55,913 bases of DNA, taken from Hydrogenophilaceae bacterium (lineage in GTDB: Bacteria > Pseudomonadota > Alphaproteobacteria > Caulobacterales > Aquidulcibacteraceae). Shown here piece after piece: positions 8,007-37,563 of the stretch (position 1 is its first letter; each line of letters starts with the position of its first letter). Under the pieces are notes generated by a model. The model was not told the origin of the DNA and ran no database searches. It saw nothing but the letters and a program-made list of their open reading frames with translations. The stretch covers positions 1 to 55,913 of the forward strand of contig JACAEE010000047.1 in the NCBI GenBank assembly GCA_013389015.1. Direction: 5' to 3'. A program made the position numbers and the translations under genes.

Positions 8007-8182
8007 GGGGCGCCCTTTGTTTCCATGGCTCGCGGGGTGGCGCGTCAAAAAATACCGTGGTTTATCCCGGCTGGTCGTGGGTAGCGTCGTGGATAGCGCG
8101 CGCGAAGCAGGGAAATATCGTTAACAGGTCATTTGCTGACCGTGAGTCAGAAGGTCGCACACAACCTTGGATTCCATGTGCG

Positions 8183-8983: not shown

Positions 8984-9006
8984 GTCAACAGTCGAGGAGA
9001 AAGAAG

Positions 9007-9951: not shown

Positions 9952-9968
9952 TTGTGACTGATGGCCGG

Positions 9969-11293: not shown

Positions 11294-11298
11294 GATGT

Positions 11299-13884: not shown

Positions 13885-14012
13885 CCGTCGACCCTTGGAC
13901 CAACTGGAGATAGCATCATCGACACGCCGTAGTACGGTCAAGTGATGTGTCGAACTACTGATGCGAACGCAGTAGAGCCAAGATCATTGGCTCACTTAGG
14001 AAGTCGATCCGA

Positions 14013-16961: not shown

Positions 16962-16964
16962 GAG

Positions 16965-18857
16965 TTAAGCAGCTTCTTCTGTGCTTGAGAGAATGGCGTC
17001 CCCAGCGTCTTCGTCAGACGTGTCTGCCTCAATCTCGATTATCTCAGCGGTCCCAGGGTGGTCCCGATGCACTGATTTACCGGTCGCATCTTCGATGAGA
17101 GCAATGAGGGCCTGCTGCCGGGCCGCGACGAAGGCCGCGTAGTCGTCCGCACGCAGCAACGTTGGGTCGATCAAATGCGAGGCGAGATACGCATCAAGAC
17201 GCTCACCCGGAATGGCGGGAGAATCCTTTCGGCCTTTCTCCAGACGCCCAATGTATACGCTGGGCGCCACGCCGCCGATGATGCGGTTGGTCCGCGCCGA
17301 CAGGGGTGTCTTGTTTATGATGGAGTCGAAGTCCAGCGGCGGCGGCTTTTGCTGCTTACACCAATCCTTCGGGAAGATGTGATGGATGTCCACGTTCTCG
17401 TTGAAGAAGACCGTGTGATCGAAATCCTGGCCGGACCGGAAGTCCTGAGCGCCTTTCTTCATCAGCAACGCGTTCATGCCTTTGTAGGCTGCTGAGAGCC
17501 GGCTCACCATGCTGCGTAAGCGCTCCGAGCGGAATGTCGCTTCCACGACTGTACCGGGCTCGCCCTTGCCATCGATCCAATCGAGGACCTCGACGACATC
17601 CTTGGCGAAGCGAGACTCCACCGCTGATCCATAAAGCTCCCCGAACACACCGTTCCAGTACCAGCGCGTCAGCTTCTGCCTCGGCCCTTCGTGGTCCCAT
17701 CGGTCGCCGAGTTCGGCGAGGATCGCGGCAAGCGGCACCAACTGCGTCTGATACGGCAGGTCGAACTCACGGTAGATACGCAGTGTATGCAGGAACTTGG
17801 CGGCGCGAACCAAGCCTTCTTCGACCTTATCGGCATATCTCTTATAGGCGGACAGCGGCAGGCTCAGCAGTGACTGGCGTGTGGCGCTCACCGCCGGAAG
17901 TTCACGCCCTTTTTTTCCTGCCTTCTCTTCGGCGGCACGACGCTCTCTCGTGTGGAGAAGGGAGATGGCCTGGAGGAATTCCGTCGAAGCAATCTTGGAA
18001 AGCACGCGAAACTTCTTCAGACGCGTCTCTCGACCTTCGTGACCGACGCCGCCGATCCAGTCTTTACGAAGCTCGAAACCGTCAGCGGCATACATCGCCG
18101 TAACAAGTTCGAATGCGTCGAGCGGCTTGCCGCCTGTGTTCACCTTCTCGAACACGAGACAAACGGCTTCCTTGGTCGTGTCGGCGCCTAGCGCGATGAC
18201 CGGCACCTGATAGTGCTTGAAGTTCTGGAGCACTTCGTTCTTGAAGCGTTGGAAGAAGCGACGCTTCTCCGGATCGCCCTTGTCGATCCAGTAATCGCCG
18301 AACCCATCCTGCCACGCATCCCAGTCGAACACCCGGTTCACCGGAAACATCAGGGATTCGTACTCGAGTTCTGGCGACGACAGATCAAGCTCCACGGTCT
18401 TGCCGAACGCCGCCTTCACCTTCCGATCTTCCGGCACACCGATGAACGCCTCTTCTCGGTCCCCTTGAGGGTCGAGCGCCTTCTGCATGTCGATGTAATA
18501 CCAAAAGCTCACCTTTACGCGGCGTGCCGTGATGGTCCTGACGACCTCCTTCCGCATGGTGGTCTGGTAGAGCGAGGTCATTCGTTGTTGACCATCGAGG
18601 AGCAGCGATTGCGGCTTCGTCGTGCTGGGGGGCGTGCCTTCGAGTTTTCTCGGTTTGAAGTCCACGTGCCCGCCGGTGTCCAGCGTCATCAAGGCGCCAA
18701 CAGGAAATCCCTCCGACACGGACGCCAATAGGCCGCGAATTCGTTCATCGTCCCAGACCCAACTGCGTTGGAAGTCCGGGAGTTGAAGCGTGCCTGCTTC
18801 GCATTCCTTCAACAGCGCTTCGAGCGAGACCGGATTGGTTCGGAACGTTGATGGCAC
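16965..18857 (-). CDS. DUF262/HNH protein, GmrSD-like
   Basis: 630 aa. The N-terminal DUF262 domain has LQLPDFQRSWVWDDERIRGL and LLLDGQQRMTSLY; the DGQQR motif is the ParB-like nucleotide site seen in GmrS. The C-terminal part has an HNH-type nuclease motif (DIHHIFPKDW) as in GmrD/DUF1524. GmrSD-type enzymes cut modified DNA. The GTG start at 18857 shares its G with the Res stop (TAGTG), so translation is coupled. The open frame upstream overlaps the Res gene and is not coding. Set between Res and Mod, it may be a second nuclease or a regulator of the complex. Confidence 0.88.
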   Translation of the reverse strand: MPSTFRTNPVSLEALLKECEAGTLQLPDFQRSWVWDDERIRGLLASVSEGFPVGALMTLDTGGHVDFKPRKLEGTPPSTTKPQSLLLDGQQRMTSLYQTTMRKEVVRTITARRVKVSFWYYIDMQKALDPQGDREEAFIGVPEDRKVKAAFGKTVELDLSSPELEYESLMFPVNRVFDWDAWQDGFGDYWIDKGDPEKRRFFQRFKNEVLQNFKHYQVPVIALGADTTKEAVCLVFEKVNTGGKPLDAFELVTAMYAADGFELRKDWIGGVGHEGRETRLKKFRVLSKIASTEFLQAISLLHTRERRAAEEKAGKKGRELPAVSATRQSLLSLPLSAYKRYADKVEEGLVRAAKFLHTLRIYREFDLPYQTQLVPLAAILAELGDRWDHEGPRQKLTRWYWNGVFGELYGSAVESRFAKDVVEVLDWIDGKGEPGTVVEATFRSERLRSMVSRLSAAYKGMNALLMKKGAQDFRSGQDFDHTVFFNENVDIHHIFPKDWCKQQKPPPLDFDSIINKTPLSARTNRIIGGVAPSVYIGRLEKGRKDSPAIPGERLDAYLASHLIDPTLLRADDYAAFVAARQQALIALIEDATGKSVHRDHPGTAEIIEIEADTSDEDAGDAILSSTEEAA

Positions 18858-20161
18858 TATTGGCCCCCCCGCTGGATGTACCCGTCGATCAAGGCGTCCA
18901 GATTCTCTTCTATCGTATGGACCTCGGTGAACTCGGCGAAGGCCCAGCGACCGAACGTCCCCAGGTTGTTCACGCCGGGGACCCACAGCACCGACATGGT
19001 CTCGGCCTTGGCCTGGGCGTCCTTACCGCGAAAGCCCTTCGTTTCGAGGATGAGGTGGAGCGGTTCTTCGCCGCCATCATGGATGCGAGCGATGAAGTCC
19101 GGCAGATACTTCCTCGGCGTCGAGCCATCGCGATACGGGACTTCGAACTGAAGACCGTGGTTCTTCACATACGCCGTGACGTGCGGATTGCGCTCCAGCG
19201 CCCTTGCAAGCTCAGCTTCCCATGATGAATCGCAGACGACGTAGTTCACGTGACATTTGTCCGGCGCCGTTCGATAGACATCCTTGGACGTCGTGAAGTT
19301 CACGAAGCGGGTAGAGCCCTTCGGGTTGTAGGCATCGAGGATCGCCTTCTTTCGTTCTTCCCCACGCAGCGTCCGTTGGCAAGCTAGGTAGATTCTCTGG
19401 CACGCATCTTCGGCGATCGAGGGGTAGAGCACGGCGCCCACCGGGGCCCCCTTCATCACGAGATAGCCGCCGTCGAGCCATTGCCGCACGACGTATCGAA
19501 TCGAAGGAAACAGGTTTACCGGCAGCGGCTCGCCGTGATCCCGGAAGTGCCGCTCCATGAGACGCTTCGCCAAGTTATAGACGATCGTGCTGGGACGAAT
19601 GTCCTCCAGAACGTTGGCGTTCAATTCTACGCCTTCGCCGACGATCCCTTCCATCAGCACCTTGGTTGGTCCGATGGCGGTAGGATCGATGATCAGCTTG
19701 GAGTCGTCCGTGAATTCCGCCTCGATCCGTTCCTCGGGCATCTCGACACGATAGCCCTCAACGCGGGGGAAGACGATTTCTAGCTCACGCTCTCTTTCCT
19801 TCACGGCCTGCACACGGGTCGTCGGCTTCGGCGCCGTGGGCTTCGAAATGACCGGCTTTGCCGTGAAGTCGAATGGAATGCCTAAGATGTCGGCGTACTC
19901 GACGTCGAACAGACCGTCTTCGTTCAGATCGTAGTTCTGACGCCGCAGCGCACGGCCGACGACCTGTTCGCAGAGCAATTGCGTGCCGAACGCCCGGACA
20001 CCCAGGATGTGCGTCACCGTGTTCACGTCCCAACCTTCGGTAAGCATCGAGACGGAGACGACGCAACGGATCGACTCGCCGAGACGTCCAGGTTTGCCGA
20101 CCGTATTCATCACCTCCCGCAGCAGGTCCTTGTCGGTACCATAGAAAGCGTTTCGCGCCAA
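18857..20161 (-). CDS. Res helicase-nuclease, N-terminally truncated
   Basis: The C-terminal half of a type III-like restriction subunit. What remains begins DKDLLREVMNTVGK, then helicase motif V (VSMLTEGWD) and motif VI (CEQVVGRALRRQ). It ends in a PD-(D/E)xK nuclease: YLPDFIARI and LILETKG. Walker A, the DEAD box and roughly the first half of the family length are missing; the TIR gene lies there instead. The TIR stop overlaps an in-frame ATG at 20110 (TGATG) with GGGAGG just upstream, so a 417-aa fragment could still be translated; the frame opens at a TTG at 20161. It cannot be an ATP-driven translocase; the nuclease half could fold alone. Confidence 0.82.
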   Translation of the reverse strand: MARNAFYGTDKDLLREVMNTVGKPGRLGESIRCVVSVSMLTEGWDVNTVTHILGVRAFGTQLLCEQVVGRALRRQNYDLNEDGLFDVEYADILGIPFDFTAKPVISKPTAPKPTTRVQAVKERERELEIVFPRVEGYRVEMPEERIEAEFTDDSKLIIDPTAIGPTKVLMEGIVGEGVELNANVLEDIRPSTIVYNLAKRLMERHFRDHGEPLPVNLFPSIRYVVRQWLDGGYLVMKGAPVGAVLYPSIAEDACQRIYLACQRTLRGEERKKAILDAYNPKGSTRFVNFTTSKDVYRTAPDKCHVNYVVCDSSWEAELARALERNPHVTAYVKNHGLQFEVPYRDGSTPRKYLPDFIARIHDGGEEPLHLILETKGFRGKDAQAKAETMSVLWVPGVNNLGTFGRWAFAEFTEVHTIEENLDALIDGYIQRGGQ

Positions 20162-21222
20162 TCAGCGCCGATGGCTGCGGCGGGGAAGTGGACATAGGAG
20201 TCCACCTTACCTTCTGACGCAGCGAGCCCGGTCTTCACCAGCGTGTCGCCGCCCGGTGTTCGAAAGCCGCGAAAGCGCTCCTTCATAATCGGCTGAAGAG
20301 CCCATCGCATTTCCGCTGTCTCGTGATCGGATGGCCCGACAGTTTCAATTTTCAGAAGTTCGCGAATATCGCTGTCATCTCGTGACTTCTTGGCATCTAT
20401 TGCCATGCGATTTTCTAGGGTCGGGCGGAGAACGAGGGCGATCAGGATTCTATAGAATGCAGTCGCGATGGCTTGCGCTTGCTCTCTCCTAATCGTGCCC
20501 TGCCCAAGCGATGCGTGCAGATTGCGAAGAACAATCCGCAAAGCGGCGTCCGCTAGTTCCAGCCTCCAGACGATTTCCGGGCGGCGACGGGTTTCCCGCT
20601 CGTAGAACGAAGCGGCTTGTGGGCTATCCTTGCCCGACGCCCACGCTAAGACTTCATCATGCCAGTCGAGCCAATGTCCGTTGGAATCGAGGATGACGCG
20701 ACGTTCGTCGCCCGGCGTCTTCAATGCCTCTCCTAGTTCCTTCGTCGACAATACGCAGGGCGAGCGTGGATCAACGGGAACGGTGCAGACGCTCTTCAAC
20801 GCTGCGTTCCTGACCACTTCCATGAGTTTCGGAGATAAGTCGCCACGAGAAGCGTCGATATAGACCCATTTTCTCAGGCGCTCGCTGATTGTCCGCTTAT
20901 CGGTGACGATGGGGAGAAGGACAAATCCATCCTTCCCACCATGCCGACCTTCAGCAAAGTCCAATTCTCTTTCGACCCAGTGAGACGAGTTGGAGTCTGG
21001 CGTCCTAAGTTGGATGAAACACTCCGCGCCTCGCACGCGCTCTGCGAGCACATCATCAAGCTTGGTGTTGATCAGCGAGGTTTCGTCTTCCATCTGCACC
21101 TGGAAACCCGCGCCAGTCAGATCATCGCGGATCACCGACGCCAGGGCCGTATCGCTGAAGCTGTAGGAAATGAAGGTCCGTGGCCCAATGGCTCGCAGCG
21201 CATTCCCCGTCATTGTCGTCAC
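20110..21222 (-). CDS. TIR-domain protein, probable NADase effector
   Basis: 370 aa. The TIR domain spans about residues 14-140: RTFISYSFSD at the start, then SHWVERELDFA, where Glu86 sits at the usual catalytic position of TIR NADases. About 230 helical residues follow that I do not recognise, perhaps a sensor. The last residues (about VPTRTCCGR) are read out of frame from Res DNA, so the original C-terminus was replaced. It starts 3 bp after the membrane-protein stop. TIR effectors deplete NAD+ or make cyclic-ADP-ribose-type signals in phage defence; a membrane partner is the natural thing to suspect. Confidence 0.82.
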   Translation of the reverse strand: MTTMTGNALRAIGPRTFISYSFSDTALASVIRDDLTGAGFQVQMEDETSLINTKLDDVLAERVRGAECFIQLRTPDSNSSHWVERELDFAEGRHGGKDGFVLLPIVTDKRTISERLRKWVYIDASRGDLSPKLMEVVRNAALKSVCTVPVDPRSPCVLSTKELGEALKTPGDERRVILDSNGHWLDWHDEVLAWASGKDSPQAASFYERETRRRPEIVWRLELADAALRIVLRNLHASLGQGTIRREQAQAIATAFYRILIALVLRPTLENRMAIDAKKSRDDSDIRELLKIETVGPSDHETAEMRWALQPIMKERFRGFRTPGGDTLVKTGLAASEGKVDSYVHFPAAAIGADWRETLSMVPTRTCCGR

Positions 21223-21225
21223 CAG

Positions 21226-21966
21226 TCAGCCATAGAGATTGAGAAAGGCGTTGAGTCCGAACCAAGCCGCGATGCAGAGAGTGGCAGTAATGGCCTGCGT
21301 CGCGAGCACGATCCGCATATCATACAGGAATGTCGCTTCGCTGATCAGCGAACCTCTATCATATTCTCTGTCACGACGCCGGTGTGCGCTTGGAACCAGG
21401 AAGTCCAATTGGTAACGCCAGTCGCGGAGGCGATATATTCTCGGTGTGAGTAGCATCGCTCTTAAGGGCCAAGGCCAGAGCAGCAGATAGCCAATTGCGA
21501 AGGCAATGAACGAGACGTGCCACATCACAGAAGAGCCTTGCCATTCGAGCATCCTCTGCATTGGGAGACGGCGAAGCCGCCATTCCTTCACGACTCTTTC
21601 CCGTGCCTCCGGTGGCGCGATTGAGGCTGACACTTGAAGAGCCTGCTTGCGTAGAGCGAGTACGCTACGCAGAATAACGCCTCCGATCAGCAACCACAGA
21701 ACTACTGCGTCAATTGCCCAAGGCGCGGGGCTGGGCCAATTCAGCCATCCGAAGACCCAGAGAACGGGGAAATGGACGACGCCTTGATAGACGCGAACGA
21801 TCTCAGCGAGCACGTCCGAGAGTTCGATGCGGACGATGTTGCGGGCGAGATTGAAGCCGGTCACGGACGCGGCGAGAATTCCAAAGACCGCCCACCAATT
21901 TGAGAACGCCGCACGCACGGAGACGAGCGCGCCGTTCTTCCGCCTCTCCTCGGTGCCGGTGGTCAT
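21226..21966 (-). CDS. Multi-pass membrane protein paired with TIR gene
   Basis: 246 aa with four to five hydrophobic segments (about residues 24-41, 60-76, 82-100, 148-168 and 220-243) and a basic cytosolic loop between the third and fourth. No family recognised. It is the first gene of the minus-strand run and ends 3 bp before the TIR start, so the two are surely co-transcribed and probably translationally coupled. I infer either a membrane anchor or sensor for the TIR protein, or a channel-type effector opened by a TIR product. Nothing in the sequence decides between these. Confidence 0.72.
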   Translation of the reverse strand: MTTGTEERRKNGALVSVRAAFSNWWAVFGILAASVTGFNLARNIVRIELSDVLAEIVRVYQGVVHFPVLWVFGWLNWPSPAPWAIDAVVLWLLIGGVILRSVLALRKQALQVSASIAPPEARERVVKEWRLRRLPMQRMLEWQGSSVMWHVSFIAFAIGYLLLWPWPLRAMLLTPRIYRLRDWRYQLDFLVPSAHRRRDREYDRGSLISEATFLYDMRIVLATQAITATLCIAAWFGLNAFLNLYG

Positions 21967-22222
21967 CGCTCCCCGCCCGCGTTGCCTCGCTCCGCTAGAT
22001 TGCCCCTACGACTAGGGGTAGCAAGTTCAATCGTGCTCCGTGCTGCCAGCAACAGAAAAGGGACTGGTTCGAGTCCGCGTTTGGGACTCGAACTCCGGCG
22101 AGTCGAACACACTTGCTGGCAACGCCCTCCAGCCCTACACCAGCCCCTACACCGCTTTAGGCGGCACCAGTGATTTTGCGTGACTTTTCAAGCTCAAAGA
22201 GTGGTGCTCTTCACTTCTTCTG

Positions 22223-22332
22223 GGCACCATTTGTTCGTTCTTCTGGACGCCGCCAGCCTCCACTCATCGGAACGCCGCGAACGCCCTGAGCGGGTTTGCA
22301 AAACTGTGGGCTGAAAATCGGGCGTCTTGTCG
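22223..22332. repeat. Element-end repeat, copy 2
   Basis: Near-identical to 863-972 (about seven mismatches in 110, no gaps). It ends two bases before the attachment core, so it is the right-hand end of block A, of a type different from the flanks at 7900 and 37380. Confidence 0.75.
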
Positions 22333-22333
22333 T

Positions 22334-22352
22334 GATCTGGCGGAGAGGGAGG
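22334..22352. repeat. Attachment site 2, between blocks A and B
   Basis: 19 bp, GATCTGGCGGAGAGGGAGG, identical to 37470-37488 at the 3' end of tRNA-Ser(CGA). Similarity fades but continues (GGAACCC against CGAACCC). The integrase gene starts 186 bp to the right, so this is the integrase-proximal end of block B and also the right end of block A. Confidence 0.88.
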
Positions 22353-22537
22353 AAGTGGAACCCACACCCCATGCGCTTTCACCCGATTTCATTTTCCTAT
22401 GTTTTTCAATTAACTATGGAGTTTTTCCGCCTTTTATGTTCTCATCCTGTTTCGGCCGATTTCATCCAAATTCGGGTGCCTGTTAGGGCAGAAGTTAGGG
22501 CGCGGTGCGCCGAATTTGCGTGTGGCGGAGAACATTT

Positions 22538-23737
22538 GTGGCGCAGCGGATCAACCGGCTGTCTCCGGGAGAAGTTCTGAGGCTTTCGGCGCCCGGTCTG
22601 CATGCCGACGGCGGCGGGCTGTACCTGCGTATCAGCGCCAATGGCGGGCGGCGCTGGGTGTTCATATTCCGGTGGCGCGGCAAGCGCGCGGAGATGGGCC
22701 TCGGCAGCGCGCGCAAGGGGCATGTCGGACTTCGCGAAGCGCGAGATCGGGCCGCTGACGCGCGGCGCCTGCTACGAGACGGCGTTAACCCGCTAGAGGC
22801 GAAGCGCACCGCGCCGAAGGCGGTGCCGACGTTTGGCGAGTTTGCCGAAAGACTGATCGACGATCTCGCGCCCGGCTTTTCAAACGCGAAGCACGTTGAG
22901 CAGTGGCGCAGCACGCTCAAAACGCACGCCGCATCGCTTCGAGATAGGCCGATCAATCAAATCACCACAGAAGATGTACTCACCGTCCTGAGGCCAATTT
23001 GGACAACACGAAATGAAACAGCGTCGCGCGTTCGAGGGCGCATCGCGCGGGTGCTCAGCGCCGCAAAGGCGCAGGGCTTCCGAGACGGTGAGAACCCCGC
23101 ACTGTGGCACGGCCACCTCGATCAGAGGCTCCCCAAGCGCCAGAAGCTCAGTCGCGGCCACCATGCGGCCATGCCGTTCGGGGAGGTGCCGGCTTTCATC
23201 GCGCGCTTACGTCTGCGCGATGCGCGATCCGCTCGCGCGCTCGAATTCCTAATCCTCACCGCCACGCGCGGAAACGAGACGCGGGGCGCGCGTTGGGAGG
23301 AGTTCGACCTGGATAAGCGTGTCTGGACCATTCCGGCGGAACGCATGAAGAGCAAGCGACCGCACCGGGTTCCGCTGACACCGCGAATGATTGAGCTTCT
23401 CGCCGACGCCAGGGCGGGCAATTCGAGTGACTTTGCGTTTGTCGGACCGGACGGCAAGCGACCCCTATCTGAGGGTGCCTTCAAGGTGCTCCTTGATCGT
23501 ATGGAGTTGGGTCAATGGACGCCTCACGGCTTCCGCTCATCGTTCAGTGATTGGGCCGCTGAAACGACACCCTTCGCTCGCGACGTGGTCGAGATGGCGC
23601 TGGCGCACGTGATCTCGAACGATACTGAGGCCGCCTATCGGCGCGGCGACATGCTGGATAAGCGACGCGCGCTAGTGGAGGCGTGGGAGACGTATTGCTG
23701 CGGTCAGGCGAGGGTGGCGTCTGTAACAGTCATCTAA
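22538..23737 (+). CDS. P4-type tyrosine integrase
   Basis: 399 aa from the GTG at 22538. The N-terminal DUF4102-like domain (INRLSPGEVLRL, DGGGLYLRIS) precedes a SAM-like domain and a C-terminal catalytic domain. Catalytic residues visible are Arg in TATRGNETRGARW, His-x-x-Arg in PHGFRSSFSDW and Tyr in EAAYRRGD. This family inserts elements into tRNA 3' ends, in line with the attachment core 186 bp upstream and tRNA-Ser at the other end of the block. It is the only integrase in the window and may act on all the tRNA-Ser attachment copies. Confidence 0.95.
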   Translation: MAQRINRLSPGEVLRLSAPGLHADGGGLYLRISANGGRRWVFIFRWRGKRAEMGLGSARKGHVGLREARDRAADARRLLRDGVNPLEAKRTAPKAVPTFGEFAERLIDDLAPGFSNAKHVEQWRSTLKTHAASLRDRPINQITTEDVLTVLRPIWTTRNETASRVRGRIARVLSAAKAQGFRDGENPALWHGHLDQRLPKRQKLSRGHHAAMPFGEVPAFIARLRLRDARSARALEFLILTATRGNETRGARWEEFDLDKRVWTIPAERMKSKRPHRVPLTPRMIELLADARAGNSSDFAFVGPDGKRPLSEGAFKVLLDRMELGQWTPHGFRSSFSDWAAETTPFARDVVEMALAHVISNDTEAAYRRGDMLDKRRALVEAWETYCCGQARVASVTVI

Positions 23738-23739
23738 TC

Positions 23740-24168
23740 CTAGAAGGTAGAGCCGCTGTTCACAGAGAAGGCGGTCTTCGGCCTTTGACCAACGACACGC
23801 ATCCGCTCCTGTCGAAATTGCCGCTGCACCCCTCTCCATCGTTCCCCAAAGGCGGCGACCGATGACGTGTGCGTGACGATCAATCTGTCTGGCGCATGGC
23901 CGTACTTCTTCTCAACGATTGTGAAGTGACCAAGGCTTCGCGTTTCGCTGAGTGCGCCGGGACCTGTGATCGCATCAATGATCCGCCGCGCTTGCTTCGC
24001 ACTCACCCCCATCGCGTCCCCAAGCTGCGCGTAAGTAAATACGTTGCAGCCTGAGAAGGTGGCAGAAGCCAGCGTGCCGCTTCCCGTCACGAAGTCAGGA
24101 TAGCCCACAAGCAGCATCGGGGTGGGCAACTTGGTTAACGGGTCCAGGGGTGGTCTGCGGTTTGTCAC
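23740..24168 (-). CDS. Winged-helix-like protein of the element
   Basis: About 142 aa from a GTG at 24168, preceded by GGTGAG; ATG 24117 is an alternative. A helix-turn-helix is suggested by YAQLGDAMGVSAKQARRIIDAI at mid-protein, followed by LSETRSLGHFTIVEKKYG, which reads like a wing. The C-terminus is Arg-rich. It is convergent with the integrase, two bases apart, and divergent from alpA. I infer an element regulator or replication accessory protein; family not recognised. The longer open frame antisense to alpA is not coding. Confidence 0.55.
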   Translation of the reverse strand: MTNRRPPLDPLTKLPTPMLLVGYPDFVTGSGTLASATFSGCNVFTYAQLGDAMGVSAKQARRIIDAITGPGALSETRSLGHFTIVEKKYGHAPDRLIVTHTSSVAAFGERWRGVQRQFRQERMRVVGQRPKTAFSVNSGSTF

Positions 24169-24259
24169 ACGCTCACCAAAGCAAGATATGTCCCAATAGT
24201 GTCTGCCGATTTCACATGTGTAGATGTTCGCGACGCTGCAACCGCAAGGGGCGTCACCT

Positions 24260-24445
24260 ATGTCGAAAATCCTACGTAACCGAGACGTCTGCGAACACCT
24301 TGGCATTAGTCCCGCGACGCTTTGGCGCTGGGTTCGAGCCGAGCACTTCCCCGCGCCTGTAAAGCTTGGGCCGAACACGGTGGGCTGGCCCTCCGCGACG
24401 GTCGAAGAGTGGCTCACCAATCGCGCGAAGGGGGACGCGCGATGA
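24260..24445 (+). CDS. AlpA-family regulator
   Basis: 61 aa, the whole being one MerR/AlpA-type helix-turn-helix: ILRNRDVCEHLGISPATLWRW, with the usual FPAPVKLGPNTVGW and VEEWL that close the family. AlpA proteins are small activators or excisionase-like factors of P4-type elements. Its stop overlaps the next start by 4 bp (ATGA), so it heads a plus-strand replication operon. It probably controls integrase or operon expression. Confidence 0.9.
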   Translation: MSKILRNRDVCEHLGISPATLWRWVRAEHFPAPVKLGPNTVGWPSATVEEWLTNRAKGDAR

Positions 24446-24819
24446 GCGAGATCAATGAAGACCGAGCGCGAGAGTTTGCGCTGCATGTGCGCCGCAGAAC
24501 ACACCCTAACGGTCCAGCTACGCGCTTCACCGGCATGGACGCGGTGGCGCTCTATCGCATCCTCAATATGTGCTGGGCGCACGACGCTGATGAATGCAAT
24601 CGCCTCCACCGAGTTTTTCGCGTCCTGTTTGGTCGCGATGCGCGAGACTGCCTGCACATCTCATTCTGCCTACCGTGCGCGTGGGTAATTGTGCGCACCG
24701 AGGGCGACGTGCCCGACGTCCCGCCATGGGGCATCCCTGAACACTACGTGTGCGCCGCAAATCGTGGTGCGGAGCCCGACGCAAAGCCGGCGTCTTTGGG
24801 GGCGTCCGATGAAGGGTAA
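24442..24819 (+). CDS. Hypothetical protein between alpA and primase
   Basis: 125 aa, no family recognised. Mixed composition with several Cys and His residues (MCWAHDADECNRLHR, CLHISFCLPCAW), which could bind a metal. ATG 24442 overlaps the alpA stop by 4 bp and its end overlaps the primase start by 11 bp, so it is tightly coupled within the element's replication operon. Confidence 0.65.
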   Translation: MSEINEDRAREFALHVRRRTHPNGPATRFTGMDAVALYRILNMCWAHDADECNRLHRVFRVLFGRDARDCLHISFCLPCAWVIVRTEGDVPDVPPWGIPEHYVCAANRGAEPDAKPASLGASDEG

Positions 24820-27307
24820 CTTCGAAAACGGCAGGGCAGCGGCCCACAGCTATCTAGACTTGGGCTTCGATCCGCTCCCGATCCTTCCGCGCTCCAAAGA
24901 GCCGCGAGGCAAATGGGGCGAAAAATACGTCGTATCCCACACGATCATCGATCACGCCTTTCAAGGCGGCGACAACGTTGCGGTGGCGCTTGGCGCTCGA
25001 TCCGACGGGCTCGTTGACTTCGATTTCGATCATCCCGTTGCGGTGGAGATGGCCGAATTGCTTGAGGGCGTCGGGCTACTGCCATCTGGGCCGGTGTTTG
25101 GGCGCAAGAGCAATCGCGCATCGCACCGCCTGTTTCGCTGCGCGGATGCTGGGCGGCTTGTTGTTTGTCAGGTTCCCGACGACCTGAAACGCCTCATCAA
25201 TGCGCCAAAATCGAAACTCATCGAAGTGCGTGGCAACGGTTGTTACACAGTGATGCCCGGCTCCATCCATCCAAGCGGCGAGCCAGTTGTATGGGAGCCT
25301 AACAGCAGCGATGACCTGCCGGAGCTTTCAGGGGCAGAAGCGGTCAGATTGGGTGGCCTGATCGGCTTCTTGACGGTCATTGATCAATGTCCCCCCCCTG
25401 AGGGGGCGCGGAACGACGCTGCGCTTGCGCTCACTGGCACCCTGATGATCGCGGGCGTTGAGCCACAGATCGCTGAAGAGATCGTTGTCGCTCTTGCCGA
25501 ACGGGCCAATGACGAGGAGGCAACGACGCGACGCTTTGGCGACCGTACCGCGCGCTTTCTTGAGGCGGGCAAGCCAGTCGTGGCGGTTGCAAAGCTCTGT
25601 GGCATTCTTGGCCTTGATGCTCACAAGCGGTTGTTCAGGTCGTGGCTGCATCCAACGACTGACAGCAACAAGGCTGCAATTCACATAGTTCCGGGCAAGC
25701 TGGCGGAGGCGGTGGACAAGGCGGAAGCCGCGCTCTTGGAAGCTGGGCTCCACATTTACGAGCGAAGTGGGGAACTCGTCAGACCGTGTCGTCTCGACGC
25801 GCAGCGCTCGATGGCGACGGCGTCCAATCTGATCCAAGTGCATGATCCGGAACCAAGTGCGGGGGCCTTGGTGCTGACGCCGGTGACGGAGCCTTGGCTG
25901 CTTGATCAGCTATCTCGTGTGGCGCGCTTTGCGAAACCCTCTGCGCGCAAGGGGGACAGCTTCGTCACGGCTGATCCGCCGTTGGCCCTTGCGAGAGGGC
26001 TGCTTGCAAGAAAAGGCGCGTGGCGGCTTCCAGTCATTCGTGGCCTGATCGAAGCGCCCACGTTACGTCGGGATCGCAGCATCCTCCAAGACGAAGGCCA
26101 TGATCCGCAATCGGGCCTTTACTTTGATGCGGCGGGCATTGTGTTTCCGAAAATCCCAGAGGAGCCCTCGCGCGAGGATGCACTCCGGGCGCTTGAGCGA
26201 TTTATCCGCCTGTTCCGCTGCTTCCCGTTCGCACCACACGATGCGCCCGAGGATTGGCGGCCCGATGCTGAAGAAGGCTTGAAACCGTCAGTCAGCCGCT
26301 CCGTCGTCTTATCCGCGGTCTTGACAGGGCTCGTGCGGCGAAGCCTTGCGTCTGCGCCCCTGCATGCAGTGGACGCGCCCACGCGCGGGAGTGGCAAGTC
26401 GCTCATTGCAGATTTGGTATCGATCATTGTAACCGGGCGTCGCGCGCGCGTGGTTTCGTGGGTGCGCGATGAAGCCGAAAACGAAAAACGCCTTTTCTCA
26501 GCACTGCTTCAAGGCGACCCGGCAATCTTTATCGATAACGTGGAGCATCAACTCGAAAGCGCCGCGCTTTGCTCAATTTTGACCCAAGGAGATTGGACCT
26601 CGCGCGTACTCAAGGAGAGCAAGAATGTCTCCGTCAGCACTGCGGCGCTGTTCATGGCTACGGGTAACAATTTGGCGTTCAAGGGCGACATGACGCGGCG
26701 CGTGGTTGTAGCCCGCCTCGATCCCCGTGCTGAGCGGCCCGAAGAGCGCGGCTTTTCATTCGATGCGCGCGAGCATGCAGTGATGGAACGGAGCTTCCTT
26801 GTCGCTAGCGGTCTCACAATCCTGCGGGCCTATGTGGCGGCTGGTTGCCCGATGCGAGGTCGGGTGTCGCCCGTTGGCAGCTTCGAAGACTGGACCTTCA
26901 TTCGCGAGGCGCTCACCTGGCTGGATCAGCCGGACCCCGCGTTGTCACGCTCTCGCGTGCAAGACGAAGACCCGGAGCGAGAGGAGCTTGGCGAAGTGAT
27001 GGCGGCGTGGGCGGAGGCATTCGGCGACAGGCCCGTCACCGTTCGCGAGGCGCTGGACTTCGCCTTCGAAGGGCGAAACGGCCTCATGCGAGAAGCCGAA
27101 GAAGCGCGGCCCAGGCTGCGGCTGCTCGCGGCGTTCGAACAGACGGGCTTTGGCGACAAGGTCAACGCAAAGCGCCTTGGCCATTGGTTCAAGAGTAGGT
27201 CCGGCAAAATCGTTGACGCCAAATCCTTCGAGAAGGTCGGCACGGACGGCCACAAGTCGAGCCGCTACGTACTTCGTGGCGCGCAACCTCTCCCGAAGAA
27301 GTTCTAG
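24809..27307 (+). CDS. Primase-helicase of a P4-like element
   Basis: 832 aa. The N-terminal part looks like a bifunctional primase-polymerase domain: FDPLPILPRSKEPRGKWG, then DGLVDFDFDHPVAVEMA with the Asp-x-Asp metal site. The C-terminal half has a P-loop (RGSGKSLIADLV) and Walker B (AIFIDNVE), then a sensor-like MATGNNLAFKGDMTRR. This is the primase plus helicase of satellite or island replication. I chose ATG 24809 because the domain starts right there; the frame is open further upstream inside the previous gene. It suggests block B can replicate after excision. Confidence 0.9.
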   Translation: MKGNFENGRAAAHSYLDLGFDPLPILPRSKEPRGKWGEKYVVSHTIIDHAFQGGDNVAVALGARSDGLVDFDFDHPVAVEMAELLEGVGLLPSGPVFGRKSNRASHRLFRCADAGRLVVCQVPDDLKRLINAPKSKLIEVRGNGCYTVMPGSIHPSGEPVVWEPNSSDDLPELSGAEAVRLGGLIGFLTVIDQCPPPEGARNDAALALTGTLMIAGVEPQIAEEIVVALAERANDEEATTRRFGDRTARFLEAGKPVVAVAKLCGILGLDAHKRLFRSWLHPTTDSNKAAIHIVPGKLAEAVDKAEAALLEAGLHIYERSGELVRPCRLDAQRSMATASNLIQVHDPEPSAGALVLTPVTEPWLLDQLSRVARFAKPSARKGDSFVTADPPLALARGLLARKGAWRLPVIRGLIEAPTLRRDRSILQDEGHDPQSGLYFDAAGIVFPKIPEEPSREDALRALERFIRLFRCFPFAPHDAPEDWRPDAEEGLKPSVSRSVVLSAVLTGLVRRSLASAPLHAVDAPTRGSGKSLIADLVSIIVTGRRARVVSWVRDEAENEKRLFSALLQGDPAIFIDNVEHQLESAALCSILTQGDWTSRVLKESKNVSVSTAALFMATGNNLAFKGDMTRRVVVARLDPRAERPEERGFSFDAREHAVMERSFLVASGLTILRAYVAAGCPMRGRVSPVGSFEDWTFIREALTWLDQPDPALSRSRVQDEDPEREELGEVMAAWAEAFGDRPVTVREALDFAFEGRNGLMREAEEARPRLRLLAAFEQTGFGDKVNAKRLGHWFKSRSGKIVDAKSFEKVGTDGHKSSRYVLRGAQPLPKKF

Positions 27308-27373
27308 CGACGTCCGGTTTTCCGGTTCTTCCGGTTTTCTTTGGCTTCCCCTTAGTACGAGTGTTGATGTGAG

Positions 27374-27799
27374 ATGTTTGATCCCTCCTCCACCGACCAG
27401 GAAAAAACCGTAGAAACCGGAGAACCGGAGCACGAAACACAAGGCACGAAACCCGCTGAACCAAACGCGACTACGTCGGCGACCATAGCTGAACGCCTCG
27501 GGCCTTGTGCTTCGCGTCTCAGGTCTCGGCGTTCCTTGGGCGAACGCCTCGACCGCGCGCACTGGACCTCGCAGATTTCGGTGTCCGTGCCGGGCTTCGG
27601 GCGCGTCGCCACCGCCCGGCGGGAACGGGGGGGCGTGGTGGCTGTCTTGTATGAACGCTGTCGCGCGCAATTGCACGAGATCGCGCCAGCGTTCGCGATA
27701 CTCTATCCGGGCGTGCCCCTGTTGCCCCCCGTTGATCCCGATTGGCTCAGGGCGCAGCGGGCGTCATGGCTGAGGCGCTACGGCCGGCGGCGCATGTAA
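27374..27799 (+). CDS. Hypothetical protein
   Basis: 141 aa, with a polar low-complexity N-terminus (Glu/Thr/Pro) and an Arg-rich, more ordered second half (RAQLHEIAPAFAILYPGVPLLP). No family recognised. It lies 66 bp after the primase on the same strand. The reverse strand has longer but less protein-like frames, so I favour this one with limited confidence. Confidence 0.4.
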   Translation: MFDPSSTDQEKTVETGEPEHETQGTKPAEPNATTSATIAERLGPCASRLRSRRSLGERLDRAHWTSQISVSVPGFGRVATARRERGGVVAVLYERCRAQLHEIAPAFAILYPGVPLLPPVDPDWLRAQRASWLRRYGRRRM

Positions 27800-27971
27800 G
27801 CTCGCCTTGGCCCTGGTTTCTTCGGGTTCTGCGAGCGCCAGCAACGGCGTGCGCCACCAAGTCCCAATTGCTAACCTCTATTTCGTGCGCGCTCCCGTCA
27901 CGCGCATAGACGCTCGAAACACGAGGCGCGAGACGCAAATGCCCGATAGACCGGAACGCACGGCCTTGGGA

Positions 27972-28316
27972 TCACCTTGGCGCAAGCTCCAAAATCCGCG
28001 CGCACCGGGCGCGCACTTCGCTTGAGACGGGCTCTTCGAGCTGCCGACAGGTCTCGGCGAGCTGATACGCCTCGACGATTTCGGCGGCTTCGGGTGTTAT
28101 CGTATTCACGGGTGCGCACGTGCCGGTTTCCCAGCAAGGCTTGTCCTCTTCTTTGAACTGCAGGCTGACGAGCCCGATTGCGCTGATGGCGACACCAGCA
28201 ACGATCGCCCAAGCCAAGTGCTTGCGCTCATATCGGTGGCGCACTGTCATGCGCGCAGCCTCAAGCGCTTGCTCTTGAGCCTCTTCTTGTGCGCTCACAC
28301 GCGGGCGACGCCTCAT
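27972..28316 (-). CDS. Small single-pass membrane protein
   Basis: 114 aa from ATG 28316. A basic helical N-terminus (RRRPRVSAQEEAQEQ...) leads to one transmembrane segment (HLAWAIVAGVAISAIGLVSL), then a short outside part with three or four cysteines. Unknown family. It is divergent from the XRE regulator, sharing the intergenic region 28317-28440. Confidence 0.45.
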   Translation of the reverse strand: MRRRPRVSAQEEAQEQALEAARMTVRHRYERKHLAWAIVAGVAISAIGLVSLQFKEEDKPCWETGTCAPVNTITPEAAEIVEAYQLAETCRQLEEPVSSEVRARCARILELAPR

Positions 28317-28440
28317 GGCGTCCTCCCGAAAGATGAAGCCGTCGCCCAAATGGTTAGCCCAGCCTTCACGAAGCACCTCACCAAGAATATGTAGGCTATA
28401 TCCCGTAGTTTAAGGCCGCGTTGATGGCCTCGCTCCTCCC

Positions 28441-28704
28441 ATGAAGGGGCGAGCGCTGGTGGCTTGGAACTTGAGGCGATTGCGGACCGCACAGCGCGTC
28501 TCGCAAGAGCGGCTTGCCGCCGATGCAGGCGTTGACCGGGCCTATATCAGCGAGATCGAACGAGAAGAGGGAAACGCGACGGTTGACCTGCTGGACCGGC
28601 TTGCGGACGTGCTCGATGTGCCGCTTGCGGAGTTCTTCGCGCAGCCTCCGCCCGGCTCAAAGCGCGCCGCCACCCTTCCGAAGGGCAGGCGCCCTGCCAA
28701 GTAG
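28441..28704 (+). CDS. XRE-family regulator, possible R-M controller
   Basis: 87 aa. A single HTH_3 domain: WNLRRLRTAQRVSQERLAADAGVDRAYISEIERE, then the dimer helix LLDRLADVLDVPLAEFF. Size and position just before a restriction gene fit a controller (C) protein, which delays nuclease expression until methylation is established. The following hsdR starts 73 bp downstream on the same strand. I did not find a clear C-box-like repeat upstream, so the controller role is inference. Confidence 0.85.
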   Translation: MKGRALVAWNLRRLRTAQRVSQERLAADAGVDRAYISEIEREEGNATVDLLDRLADVLDVPLAEFFAQPPPGSKRAATLPKGRRPAK

Positions 28705-28777
28705 CAACGCCTCGCCAGCCCCGCCCTGAACAACCTTGGCTTTGCCATGGGGTCCGAACTCCCCCAAATTGGACCGG

Positions 28778-30892
28778 ATGGCGAACGAAGCCTTTTCCCG
28801 CGTCCAGGTGGACGCCCTCCTCAAAGACGTGGGGTGGAGCCTCACGGACGGGCGGAGCGTGCGCTTCGAGGTGCCATGCCCGGACCGGTCCAAGGCGGAC
28901 TATGTGTTGGGAGACCGCAATGGCCGCGCCCTGGCGGTGGTGGAGGCCAAGCGGGCCGCCATCAGCCCCGTGGAGGCCGAAGGACAGGCCCTAGCCTACG
29001 CCAAGCAGCTCGGCACGCCATTCGTCTTCCTGACCAACGGGGAAGAGGTCTGGTTCTGGGAGCACGCCCGCGAGGCCCACCCACGGCAGGTCCGCACCTT
29101 CTTCTCCCAACTCGATCTCGAAAGACGGGCCGCGAGCTACGCCGTCCGGCGCGACCTGCTCAGCGTGCCGGTGGACCACCGCATCGCGGGGCGGGAGTAT
29201 CAAAGCGCTTGCATCGAGGCGGTGAGCCGCGAAATCGCCCAAGGCCGCCGATCAGCGCTCATTGAGATGGCGACAGGGACCGGCAAGACCCGAACGGCGG
29301 CGGCGCTCATCAAGCGCCTCTTCGAGGCGGGCCTCGCGTCTCGTGTCTTGTTTCTGGTGGATCGCAAGACGCTCGCCAAGCAGACGGCGGAAGCCTTCGA
29401 GGAAGCGCTGCCGGAGTACGCGAGCTACTGGATGCGTGCCGGGCGTTTCCGTGATGAGAAGCAGATCACGATCACGACCTTGCAATCGATGATCAACATC
29501 TATCGCGATTATTCATCCGGATATTTCGATCTGGTGATCACGGATGAGTGCCACCGCTCGATCTATGGCAAATGGTCGGGCGTGCTGAAACACTTCGACG
29601 GATTTCAAGTTGGCCTGACGGCGACGCCATGCGTTGCGTCGGACGAAACGCTGGCGCGCTTGGAGGATGAAGATCAAGCCTTCGTGCGCGACACGCTGCG
29701 CTTCTTCAACGTCGAGAAGCCTACCTATCGCTACACGATGAAGGAGGCCATCGCCGACGGCTATCTTGTCCCGTACCACGTCTATAAGGCCAAGACCGTG
29801 AAGACGGCGGCTGAGGATGGGTTTCCCGTCAAGCGCGATGAGATCGATTGGTCCGGCCTAGACGCGGAAACGAAGGCCGAACTTGAGCAAGCCTTCGGTG
29901 AAGACGGCACGCTTCTCGTCGATCCCAACGCGCTCGAGCGCAAGTTCACGATCCCGGAGCGCAACCGCGCCATCGTGCGCGAGTTCCGCAAGGTGCTGGA
30001 CGAGGGCTATCTCGGCCCAGACGGCGTCATGCGGCGCCCCCAGATCGGCAAGACCATCGTGTTCGCGGTGAGCAAGCGGCACGCCGAAACACTTGCCCGC
30101 ATGTTTGACGACGCTTTCGCCGATCAAAAGCCGAGCCCCGAAACACGATACGCGGATTTCGTCGTCTCCGATCTCTCGGAAGACGAGACGGGCGACGCTG
30201 ACGACAAGATCAAGCGCTTCAAGGACGAGGCGTTCCCGAAAATTCTCGTCTCAGTGAATATGCTCGACACGGGATTTGACTGCCCGGAGGTGACGCATCT
30301 CGTGATGGCGCGCTTCACGAAGTCCACCATCCTCTACCAGCAGATGCGCGGGCGCGGCACGCGGCGCGCCGACCACATCCGCAAGGACAAGTTCACGATC
30401 TGGGATTTCGTCGGCGTCACCGATTTTCACATGGACGATGAGGGCGAGCACGAGGGCGGCCTCGTGATCGCGCGCCCGCGCAAGGAACCGCCCAAGCCCC
30501 GCGCGCTCCTCGTGCTCGACATTCACGATTGGATCGATCCGGCCACACGCGGCTGGGTGGCGATGGACCCCGACGGCAACCCAGTACCCATCGATGGCCC
30601 TGAAGCGCGCGCTAAGGAGCTGGGCGAGCGCTTCGAATATTGGATGGCGGAGCACGAAGGCGATCTCTCGCCGAGCCAAGAACGGCTGCTGAAGCAGATC
30701 GGCGAACAGATTAAAGTCAACGCCACGCAGATCAGCGGCTTCGGCATGGAGCGGCTGGTGCATCCGCCCTTCTCGCTGAGGGGAGGCTTGGCGGCGGCGG
30801 TGGAGGCGTTCGGCGGCGAGGAGAAACTTGCCGGCACACTCGAACACTTGAACAAGGCCGTCTTCCAATCGGGAGGCGACGGCGCGCACTGA
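28778..30892 (+). CDS. hsdR: Type I restriction subunit R
   Basis: 704 aa. N-terminal PD-(D/E)xK nuclease: SKADYVLGD and VVEAKRA. The SF2 motor follows with Walker A EMATGTGKTRT, the DECH box (TDECHRSIYGKW), motif III GLTATP and motif VI QQMRGRGTRR. The C-terminal part matches the short EcoEI-like R subunits (700-800 aa). I chose ATG 28778; an in-frame TTG at 28736 is open. It works only in complex with HsdM and HsdS, and hsdM, 35 bp downstream, is broken here. Confidence 0.92.
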   Translation: MANEAFSRVQVDALLKDVGWSLTDGRSVRFEVPCPDRSKADYVLGDRNGRALAVVEAKRAAISPVEAEGQALAYAKQLGTPFVFLTNGEEVWFWEHAREAHPRQVRTFFSQLDLERRAASYAVRRDLLSVPVDHRIAGREYQSACIEAVSREIAQGRRSALIEMATGTGKTRTAAALIKRLFEAGLASRVLFLVDRKTLAKQTAEAFEEALPEYASYWMRAGRFRDEKQITITTLQSMINIYRDYSSGYFDLVITDECHRSIYGKWSGVLKHFDGFQVGLTATPCVASDETLARLEDEDQAFVRDTLRFFNVEKPTYRYTMKEAIADGYLVPYHVYKAKTVKTAAEDGFPVKRDEIDWSGLDAETKAELEQAFGEDGTLLVDPNALERKFTIPERNRAIVREFRKVLDEGYLGPDGVMRRPQIGKTIVFAVSKRHAETLARMFDDAFADQKPSPETRYADFVVSDLSEDETGDADDKIKRFKDEAFPKILVSVNMLDTGFDCPEVTHLVMARFTKSTILYQQMRGRGTRRADHIRKDKFTIWDFVGVTDFHMDDEGEHEGGLVIARPRKEPPKPRALLVLDIHDWIDPATRGWVAMDPDGNPVPIDGPEARAKELGERFEYWMAEHEGDLSPSQERLLKQIGEQIKVNATQISGFGMERLVHPPFSLRGGLAAAVEAFGGEEKLAGTLEHLNKAVFQSGGDGAH

Positions 30893-30927
30893 ATGCGCGT
30901 GCGGTGATAAGGGCAAAAGGGGCTTAA

Positions 30928-32552
30928 ATGCCATTCACGCAGGACATGCGCCGGGATGTGGATCGCATCCGGGACTATCTCTATGGCGGCGGCTATCCCG
31001 ATCCGGTGGCCAACGCCACGCAGCTCTCATTCCTGTTCTTCTTCTACCTGATCGAAGGCATCGACCGGGACAACGCGCTCACCGCCAAAGCACGAAAGGC
31101 GAAATACGAGCCGATCTTTGAAGGTGTGTGGGAACTCAAGAACACGCGCAACGCCCAGACCGAAGGCGAGACCACGATCCCGCGCGAGCGCTTCCGCTGG
31201 TCGCATTGGGCGCGCGGCATGAGCGGCGAGCCGCTGGTGCGCTTCGTGCGCGACGAAGTGTTTCCGTTCTTCGCCGAAGTGGCGGAGCGCTCCGCGATGA
31301 ACTTCATGGAGGGCGCCCGCCTTGGCGTCGATGATCCCGTCGTGCTGGCGCAAGTGCTGACGCTGATCGACGGCCTAAGGCTCGACCGCGCCGACGCCGA
31401 CGTGAAGGGCGACCTCTTCGAGCACATCTTGAAGCAGATCAAGACGGCGGGCGAACTCGGCCAGTTCCGCACGCCGCGCCATGTGATCCGGCCATCGTGC
31501 GCATGATCGATCCCAAAATCGGTGAGACGATCTATGACCCCGCCGCCGGCACCGCCGGCTTTCTCGTGGCCGCCTATGATCACATCCGCCTGCAAAACTC
31601 GTCAGCGGATGGCGTTGAAGAAGCGGAGGTGGACGGAAAGCCGCTCAAGCGCGGCGTGGGTGATCGTCTGTCGGACAAGCAGATCGCCACGCTTCGCAAC
31701 GCCACGTTCTACGGCAACGACGTGGACCCCAACATGGTGCGCCTCGCCACCATGAACCTCACGCTGCGCGGGCTGGGCAATGTCCACATCCTGCGCCGCA
31801 ACGTACTCACCGAGACGTTCGATGCGGAGAAGAAGGCCGCGCTTGGCTTGCCGCTCGAAGGCTTCGACGTGATCCTCGCCAATCCGCCCTTCTCAGGGCG
31901 GCTCGATGCGGATCGCATTGTCGATAGCGTGAAGGTGGGCGCGACGACCCAAACGGAGCTGCTTTTCCTCGCCTACATGCTGAGCGCATTGAAGGAAGGC
32001 GGGCGCTGCGGCGTGATCGTGCCCGAAGGCGTGCTCTTCGGCTCCACCGGCGCGCACAAGGAGCTGCGTCGGCGGCTCATCGAGACCAACCAGGTGGAGG
32101 CGGTGCTCTCGCTGCCGGCGGGCGTATTTCAGCCCTATAGCGGCGTGAAAACGGCGGCGCTGATCTTGAGGAAGGGCGGGCGCACCGAGCGCGTGCTCTT
32201 CCTCGATTGCCAGGCCGATGGCTACAAGCTCGACGCCCAGCACGACACGCCCATCGACGCGGACGATTTGCCGGCGCTGGTGGAGACGTTTCAGGCGCGC
32301 GCCGACGCGTGGATGCGCTGGCAGGATCGCGATCCCGATGCGGCATGGAATGAACGCTGGTGGTTCGCGACCGCCGCCGATCTGCGCGCGCATGATCTGA
32401 GCCTCTCCGCCGCCAAGTACAAGCCGCACCTGCGCGTCGCGGCCGACCACCGTCCGCCCGCCGAAATCCTCGCGGAGCTGAAAGAGCTGAACGCCGAGAT
32501 CGCGGCGGAGATGGAGGCGCTGGAATTAGAGCTTGCGGAGCTGCGGGCGTGA
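30928..32552 (+). pseudogene. hsdM: Type I methyltransferase subunit M, frameshifted
   Basis: Two frames that together make one HsdM of about 541 aa. Frame 1 (30928-31506) has the helical N-terminal domain and runs to QFRTPRHVIR, then PSCA and stop. Frame 2 (31497-32552) resumes at MIDPKIGETI, motif I DPAAGTAGF and motif IV NPPFSG. The family reads RHVIRAIVRMIDP; one base is missing near 31491-31493 (ATCCGGCCATC where an extra G or C is needed). Length 1625 is one short of a multiple of three. No other defect is visible, so it is a recent loss or a sequencing error. Frame 2 keeps both catalytic motifs but lacks the N-terminal domain. Confidence 0.9.
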
Positions 32553-33715: not shown

Positions 33716-33717
33716 CC

Positions 33718-34659: not shown

Positions 34660-34706
34660 TCTAGGGGCATTCACAAAGGGTTTCGGAACATTCAACGGAG
34701 CGGACG

Positions 34707-37157: not shown

Positions 37158-37471
37158 TGCGGGACACTCCTGGTCGCGGAATGCGTGATGCATTAACTCT
37201 GGACCAACGTGGACGCTTGTATTGGCCAAGCTGCTGTTTTGGGCCTTGGCGTTTCCAGGTTTTGCGCGTCGCGATTTCGAAGACCCGCCCCTGGCTCGAA
37301 GTGACCAAAGCAGAACTGCCGGCGGCTTCGATTGCCACTCGGCAAATATCACCGGCGGCCATTACCGCACGCTTCGGCCCGACGCTCGATTTCGTCCGTT
37401 AGGGCAGGCGTTAGGGCAAGACCGACGCGTCCCCATAATTCATCGGCAAAATCAGATGGATATGAGCACGA
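37158..37471. other. Right-hand flank of block B
   Basis: About 310 bp between the SIR2-STAND gene and tRNA-Ser without a credible gene. Positions 37380-37471 resemble 7900-7985, the flank of attachment site 1, so both are the same type of element end. The rest shows nothing I recognise. Confidence 0.6.
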
Positions 37472-37473
37472 TC

Positions 37474-37563
<90 letters not shown>

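Follow-up and report, generated by a model that had tools for sequence, protein, structure and literature searches.

The 55,913-nt stretch analyzed here (the window) is the whole of contig JACAEE010000047.1 (C100) from assembly GCA_013389015.1 of a Hydrogenophilaceae bacterium (GTDB order Caulobacterales), a genome of 2.97 Mb that is divided among 172 contigs and is 83% complete. The window contains a 15.1-kb element, denoted block B, that runs from approximately 22337 to 37473 and is located at the 3' end of tRNA-Ser(CGA). Its genes encode, in order, an integrase, AlpA, a small open reading frame (ORF), and a Prim-Pol/SF3 helicase, followed by type I restriction-modification (RM), Mrr, and SIR2-STAND genes. 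The features of block B are listed below.

22334-22352: attL core of block B, repeating the 3' end of tRNA-Ser (19 nt, identical to 37470-37488)
22337-22351: shared 15-bp core, CTGGCGGAGAGGGAG
22482-22501, + strand: predicted integrase-side arm-type sites, GTTAGGGC at 22482 and 22494 (12-bp period)
22505-23737, + strand: tyrosine integrase (Pfam Arm-DNA-bind_3, Phage_int_M, and Phage_integrase (PF00589), all above the cut-off)
24224-24445, + strand: AlpA-family protein, predicted directionality factor/regulator (PF05930, E = 1e-12; PHROG excisionase, 1e-11)
24442-24819, + strand: small ORF of 125 aa between alpA and the primase gene (no family found)
24809-27307, + strand: primase-helicase with a Prim-Pol (AEP) domain and an SF3/D5-type AAA+ helicase (PF09250, E = 3e-16)
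27313-27429: candidate origin, facing arms at 27313-27336 and 27406-27429 with a 69-nt spacer and a 9-bp internal period in each
27374-27799, + strand: ORF of 141 aa, a doubtful gene
28441-28704, + strand: C1-type helix-turn-helix (HTH) regulator before the type I RM genes (PF01381)
28760-33715, + strand: type I RM genes (HsdR, 28760-30892; HsdM, 30928-31506 and 31497-32552; HsdS, 32549-33715)
33718-34659, + strand: Mrr-type restriction enzyme (PF04471, PF14338)
34707-37157, + strand: SIR2-STAND NTPase, a candidate defence gene (PF13289, PF25199)
37398-37417, + strand: predicted tRNA-side arm-type sites, GTTAGGGC at 37398 and 37410
37470-37563, - strand: attR core and intact tRNA-Ser(CGA), with the tRNA at 37474-37563

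The reading frame of the integrase is intact. Residues R255, K282, H341, R344, H368, and Y378, which we take to be the catalytic set, are invariant in 12 aligned sequences, the window's own included. The integrase group was found in 214 of the 398 genomes of the order at E <= 1e-30; the window's own gene is included in this and the later counts for the order. The end of tRNA-Ser at 37470-37492 is repeated exactly at 22334-22352 (19 nt) and again at 7986-8006 (21 nt), and the earlier sequence-only reading of this DNA was correct that the neighboring block A has the same attachment core. Of 29 close integrase relatives, 20 have a tRNA-Ser-end core 120-165 bp upstream of int, compared with 106 of 3320 random windows; the 29 are those for which a locus was returned, and some equally close matches had no locus. 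The core is present in all 11 of the most similar relatives, and for six of these ARAGORN identified an intact tRNA-Ser in the fetched stretch with long flanks, with four different anticodons (CGA, GGA, GCT, and TGA). The integrase-side junctions of the relatives read TCCG in 16 of 20 cases and GGAT in none. A search of Rfam at the gathering threshold returned tRNA only.

The 8-bp sequence GTTAGGGC occurs in just four exact copies on both strands of the window. Two copies are found at each end of block B, 12 bp apart and on one strand, just before int at one end and just before the tRNA at the other. When the tandem was searched with up to three mismatches, three matches were obtained, all at these two places, versus 0-1 in each of 10 shuffles. 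Integrase relatives for which both ends are known likewise share sites between their ends, each with its own sequence: GTTAGGGCCGG in G056, GTAGGGACT in G291, TTGGGGCA in G304 and G157, and GTAGGGAC in G196. The shared arm 8-mers were significant against shuffles (p <= 0.022) in six of seven elements, block B included. These tandem sites would be the arm-type binding sites of the integrase. By eye, the 200 bp after tRNA-Ser(CGA) show no such arm site in the congeners G010 and G012, and in a third congener (G011) the tRNA is followed by a protein that matches HsdM weakly. In G010, the tRNA-Ser and the stretch that adjoins it in the window are 46 kb apart on opposite strands (G010:C78:52106-52246 and 98126-99200).

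The frame of alpA is also intact. The AlpA protein has a weak match to a PHROG family labeled terminase small subunit (1.1e-4 vs 1e-11 for excisionase), which is read as a shared HTH. The alpA gene overlaps the small ORF by 4 nt (ATGA, 24442-24445), and the ORF overlaps the primase gene by 11 nt (24809-24819). The sequence-only reading had placed an integrase, AlpA, and a primase-helicase with tight overlaps at this locus. The three genes are borne out by the Pfam matches and the structural model of the replicase, and the overlaps hold for alpA, the ORF, and the primase gene but not for int and alpA, which are separated by a gap of 486 nt. A scan of 22000-28500 with the sigma-70 consensus only found no promoter. 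AlpA is needed for the excision of EcCIMP1 (PMC11773190) and is necessary and sufficient to activate PICMI115, one of the phage-inducible chromosomal minimalist islands (PICMIs) (PMC10803314). The AlpA relative VefA is required for the excision of VPI-2 at tRNA-Ser (PMC3014918).

The frame of the replicase gene is intact as well. The helicase half of the protein gave no Pfam match, and a PDB sequence search with the replicase profile returned nothing at E <= 0.01; folds were therefore used. The replicase model, with a predicted local distance difference test (pLDDT) score of 77, aligned with poxvirus D5 (8apl_A) with a Z score of 14.9 and with the SaPI5 primase-helicase (7ola_D) with a Z score of 14.7 over 323 residues (root-mean-square deviation of 4.9). 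Residues 5-285 of the model aligned with the pRN1 primase (9aam) with a Z score of 10.8. As modeled, the helicase half matches the SF3/D5 type. Full-length relatives with 38% identity are found in records under Roseibaca, Rhodobacteraceae, Oceaniradius, Rhodovulum, and Paracoccaceae. Upstream of the replicase gene, L208 has an integrase and an HTH_17 protein, L207 an integrase, and L212 an HTH_17 protein. A tRNA-Thr(CGT) is found downstream in five of the six relatives (L208-L212, not L207), and in L208 the replicase gene is followed by type I RM genes. The replicase was identified in 20 of the 398 genomes of the order at E <= 0.001, compared with 214 for the integrase group, and the replicase and integrase modules therefore appear to be exchanged. 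A close relative at tRNA-Ser(GGA) (L100, in G056), whose integrase is 59% identical, carries in its place a replicase of the D5_N/DUF5906 type, together with a DUF4011-helicase-MTES_1575 protein (1699 aa).

An inverted repeat, TCCGGTTTTCCGGTTCTTCCGGTT, begins at the sixth base after the stop codon of the primase gene, and its partner follows after 69 nt. The two arms are complementary at 20 of 24 positions, and 3 of 500 random windows were as good. A 9-bp internal period was detected in each arm (p = 0.013 for each). The initial survey of 20 loci was extended to cover 69 of 78 replicase loci, with the stops set by a simple open-frame rule; L220 was left out because it is near a contig end, and L062, L205, L233, L246, L248, L250, L252, and L253 for being incomplete or doubled or for similar closeness to a contig end. 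Of the 69 (window counted), 34 show an inverted repeat scoring 18/24 or better within 260 bp after the stop, compared with 16 of 414 random windows. Expressed as distinct loci, the count is 32 of 67, since L053/L214 and L054/L200 are two pairs of identical sequences. The period was tested in 16 of the initial 20 loci (L190, L199, L208, and L213 were left out, their repeats being weak or of another kind), and 9 bp was the best period in 23 of the 32 arms. The plasmid pRN1 needs a 100-bp stem-loop downstream of the replicase gene for replication, a requirement that the same study proposed for phages too (PMC4234260). The origins of phage-inducible chromosomal islands (PICIs) are found just 3' of the initiator gene and contain two sets of iterons on either side of an AT-rich region (PMC6092414). 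Because both kinds of origin are located downstream of the initiator gene, the candidate origin of block B is placed at 27313-27429. When the 60-bp windows of block B are ranked by AT content, the spacer does not fall within the top 12. The ORF at 27374-27799 is doubtful, and may not be a gene, because no relative or family was found in the scans and its start is inside the candidate origin. In 15 of the 18 tested viral contigs with this helicase (L188-L206), the gene is directly followed by an inverted repeat scoring 18/24 or better, which is possibly a general phage origin.

The cargo of block B comprises the C1-type regulator, the type I RM genes, Mrr, and the SIR2-STAND protein. HsdM is divided between two overlapping frames (30928-32552), and in the relative L055 there is a single frame; the split is either a real frameshift or an assembly error. 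Pfam scans of 15 ORFs of block B detected no capsid, tail, or terminase family, in agreement with the sequence-only reading, which had reported no capsid or tail genes. The PHROGs scan covered seven ORFs of block B, and for HsdM-C and HsdS the scan was by PADLOC only.

It is probable that block B is an integrative, self-replicating defence island of the satellite type. At the sequence level, this proposal is based on the gene families and their overlaps, the att cores, the sites inside both ends with their counterparts in relatives, and the inverted repeats after the replicase gene in many relatives. With the help of the tandem arm sites that lie immediately within either end of the element, the integrase would recombine the 15-bp core at the 3' end of tRNA-Ser. 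AlpA would set the direction of excision and possibly trigger it. Replication of the excised circle would start at the pair of inverted repeats immediately behind the Prim-Pol/SF3 helicase gene and would be carried out by that enzyme. The type I RM, Mrr, and SIR2-STAND genes would be carried as cargo, with a predicted activity in defence. Because block B has an integrase, a directional factor, a replicase, and both attachment arms as well as a candidate origin, the conclusion that an integration and replication module of the satellite type drives it is supported, and the element is probably mobile within the cell.

A number of observations weigh against this proposal. With four mismatches allowed, the GTTAGGGC tandem is no more common in the window (5) than in the shuffles (5-9), and the arms of the seventh element, G031, do not match (p = 0.126). 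The integrase-side junction of block B itself reads GAAG, without the TCCG half that is found in 16 of 20 relatives. More than half of the replicase relatives (35 of 69) have no inverted repeat at the threshold. The close relatives L208-L210 are below it (16-17), with facing repeats of 16-17/24 visible in L209 and L210, and the 9-bp period passes p <= 0.033 in 19 of 32 arms. The 163-nt origin region as single-stranded DNA folds no better than its shuffles (z = -0.79; 41/200 as good), and iterons are therefore favored over a hairpin. The type I system may be inactive because HsdM is split between two frames, and block B may be a domesticated relic.

The possibility that block B is a decayed, immobile defence island whose mobility genes are relics would account for the split hsdM, for the older, decayed element end next door, and for the unusual right half of the integrase-side core. 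We regard it as rather unlikely, given that the frames of the integrase, AlpA, and replicase are intact, the four arm sites are exact, and the cores and inverted repeats are preserved. An alternative function for the inverted repeats, as a transcription terminator or RNA structure rather than an origin, would fit their position directly after the stop codon. The 69-nt spacer, the 9-bp period in both arms, the lack of a better fold than that of shuffles (DNA energies), and the recurrence of the same placement and design behind relatives of differing sequence make this function unlikely, though it merits consideration. The sequence-only reading had described the core of block B as P4-like. The test for P4 satellites employs seven components, of which one or two may be missing, and Sid is represented by a custom profile (PMC8628076). 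In block B, the integrase (PF00589) and AlpA (PF05930) were found. For alpha (PF03288), the replicase matches only PF09250 at E <= 0.001, and no Psu (PF07455), delta (PF04606), or epsilon (PF10554) was detected by Pfam in the 15 ORFs. Membership in the P4 family was rejected on these grounds, and the satellite-type module is what remains of the earlier description. That block B is a P4-family satellite hijacking a P2-like helper is very improbable, although it has the integrase and AlpA in common with P4 and its replicase is of the primase-helicase type. A helper prophage, for which the sequence-only reading had suggested a search, was not found when the genome itself, 83% complete, was searched with one portal family (PF04860). 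The one PF04860 gene (C123, L257) is beside a prohead protease, a head-tail connector, NlpC/P60, and GTA_TIM, and this locus is a gene-transfer-agent-type cluster rather than a prophage, an observation that, within the one portal family searched, weighs against the P4-satellite reading. Other integrase-family genes of the genome are found in C27, C42, and C104, and their membership in a prophage was not established.

A satellite resembling a PICI or PICMI, with a pRN1-type replicon, fits block B better than a P4-like one. P4 elements have an integrase, AlpA, a primase-helicase protein, and known defence cargo, as in block B, and differ by the Psu, delta, epsilon, and PF03288 alpha that were not found in the scans of block B (PMC8628076). 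The PICMIs of Vibrionaceae, defined by the set int, alpA, and prim, have int, alpA, often a small gene, and prim in the order found here, and no capsid-remodeling genes (PMC10803314). The integrase and AlpA (PF05930/PF12728) of the PICMI test were both found in block B, but neither DUF3987 (PF13148) nor DUF5906 (PF19263), the PICMI primase domains, was found in its replicase. PICMIs also insert at fis rather than tRNA-Ser, their small gene often overlaps int whereas the overlaps in block B are those of alpA, the ORF, and prim, and no helper is known for block B. Gram-negative PICIs such as EcCICFT073 have, like block B, int, alpA, and a primase-helicase in approximately 15 kb with no structural genes (PMC6092414). 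Their iteron sets are directly 3' of the replicase gene, where block B has the facing repeats of the candidate origin; in the ORFs of block B that were scanned, no packaging or phage-interference gene was found, the element is not known to be induced by a phage, and the N-terminus of its replicase is a Prim-Pol domain. The replicons of the pRN1 plasmid and the BIP-1 phage combine a Prim-Pol and an SF3 helicase with a large inverted repeat just downstream (PMC4234260). In block B, the predicted replicon of this type is inside an integrative element, and the arms have a 9-bp period. Like block B, VPI-2 of Vibrio cholerae has the tRNA-Ser insertion, a tyrosine integrase, an AlpA-like directionality factor, type I RM cargo, and no transfer genes, but it is 57 kb in length and carries pathogenicity cargo (PMC3014918).

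It is possible, though we propose it tentatively, that block B belongs to an undescribed family of alphaproteobacterial integrative elements. Such elements would combine a pRN1-type replicon and a downstream inverted iteron origin with exchangeable integrase/AlpA sets, whose tRNA-specific cores and arm sites change together. They would carry defence cargo without a recognizable packaging or hijacking gene and would be spread by some helper. The tRNA is tRNA-Ser for block B and is tRNA-Thr(CGT) beside five of the six close named replicase relatives. In the literature searches, no described family of such elements was named in the titles and opening abstract lines of the open-licence papers among the matches listed. 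Block B illustrates that a defence island in Alphaproteobacteria can hold all that seems necessary for leaving the chromosome, being copied, and entering it again. The interest of block B is in its readable attachment and origin sites, since the att core, the arm sites, and the origin are concrete sites that can be tested. The inverted repeat behind the replicase gene would extend the proposal of a pRN1-type origin to integrative defence elements and to additional phage contigs.

The sequence-only reading had also suggested that block A, which adjoins block B, could be mobilized in trans by the integrase of block B. The features of block A and its ends are as follows.

7900-8006: apparent decayed tRNA-side end of an older element, left of block A (damaged arms, core, and 21 nt of the tRNA end)
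8007-22215: block A (type III RM-like genes, GmrSD, TIR, and helicase; no integrase found and no exact arm site)
22216-22332: right end of block A, a repeat containing the 3' end of tRNA-Leu(CAG)

A search of the whole genome for Phage_integrase gave one match on this contig, the integrase of block B, and none in block A, as the sequence-only reading had stated. The segment at 7900-8006 shares 79% identity with 37379-37492, and its arm pair is damaged. The core at 7987 reads on for 5 nt as tRNA (GGATT), unlike any of the 20 integrase-side junctions. Judged from its sequence, the left junction of block A represents what is left of an older element similar in kind to block B, namely its tRNA-side end. 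The segment at 22216-22332 is 97% identical to C146:1303-1426 (L018), where the final 14 nt of an intact tRNA-Leu(CAG) are included, and 93% identical to 857-972 of the window. The ends of block A have no 8-mer in common with each other or with the opposite arm of block B. Exact copies of GTTAGGGC are absent from these ends, and single sites with two mismatches occur as expected by chance.

Relatives of the block A methyltransferase were found in 27 of the 398 genomes of the order at E <= 1e-60, and 10 relatives of the RM core were fetched with their flanks. Three of the 10 are beside other integrases: tRNA-Phe and an integrase match are next to the RM genes in G114 and G170, and an integrase match adjoins tRNA-Leu(CAG) in G390. 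G190 has tRNA-Phe without an integrase match, G026, G075, and G081 have other tRNAs in the stretch, and G027, G106, and G217 have none. Because of its ends and the neighborhoods of its RM relatives, block A is best read as a separate passenger with another history, adjoining block B and lacking the arm sites of its integrase. Blocks A and B could instead be one system, in which the integrase of block B also excises block A, or both together, through the common core. The same 15-bp core at 7987, 22337, and 37473 is what this arrangement would require, but the arm sites that flank block B only, the continuation of the 7987 core as tRNA, the tRNA-Leu-derived right end, and the other integrases near the RM relatives make it improbable, and the suggestion of mobilization in trans is not sustained. 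The common core by itself does not make block A mobile by the integrase of block B. An arm-site rule of this kind would allow one to predict from sequence which neighboring blocks an integrase is likely to move, despite a common core. Excision of block A by some different integrase, since lost, is possible.

The 118-bp repeat at 857-972, 22216-22332, and L018:1303-1426 consists of the 14-nt end of tRNA-Leu(CAG) and approximately 104 nt. The three copies have nearly the same far boundary and are interleaved with the repeats of the tRNA-Ser end. The interval from the tRNA-Leu repeat to the decayed end of the tRNA-Ser element (972-7984) contains TonB receptor, TetR, carboxylesterase, and major facilitator superfamily (MFS) genes, which could either have come with the older element as cargo or be chromosomal. 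Within block A, the type III-like restriction gene (18857-21222) is without the first 589 residues of the relative L171, and a TIR-domain ORF overlaps the remainder. The HigB/RelE-like protein (10493-11293) matches just the first 219 residues of the 686-aa L171 relative that accompanies this RM system elsewhere.

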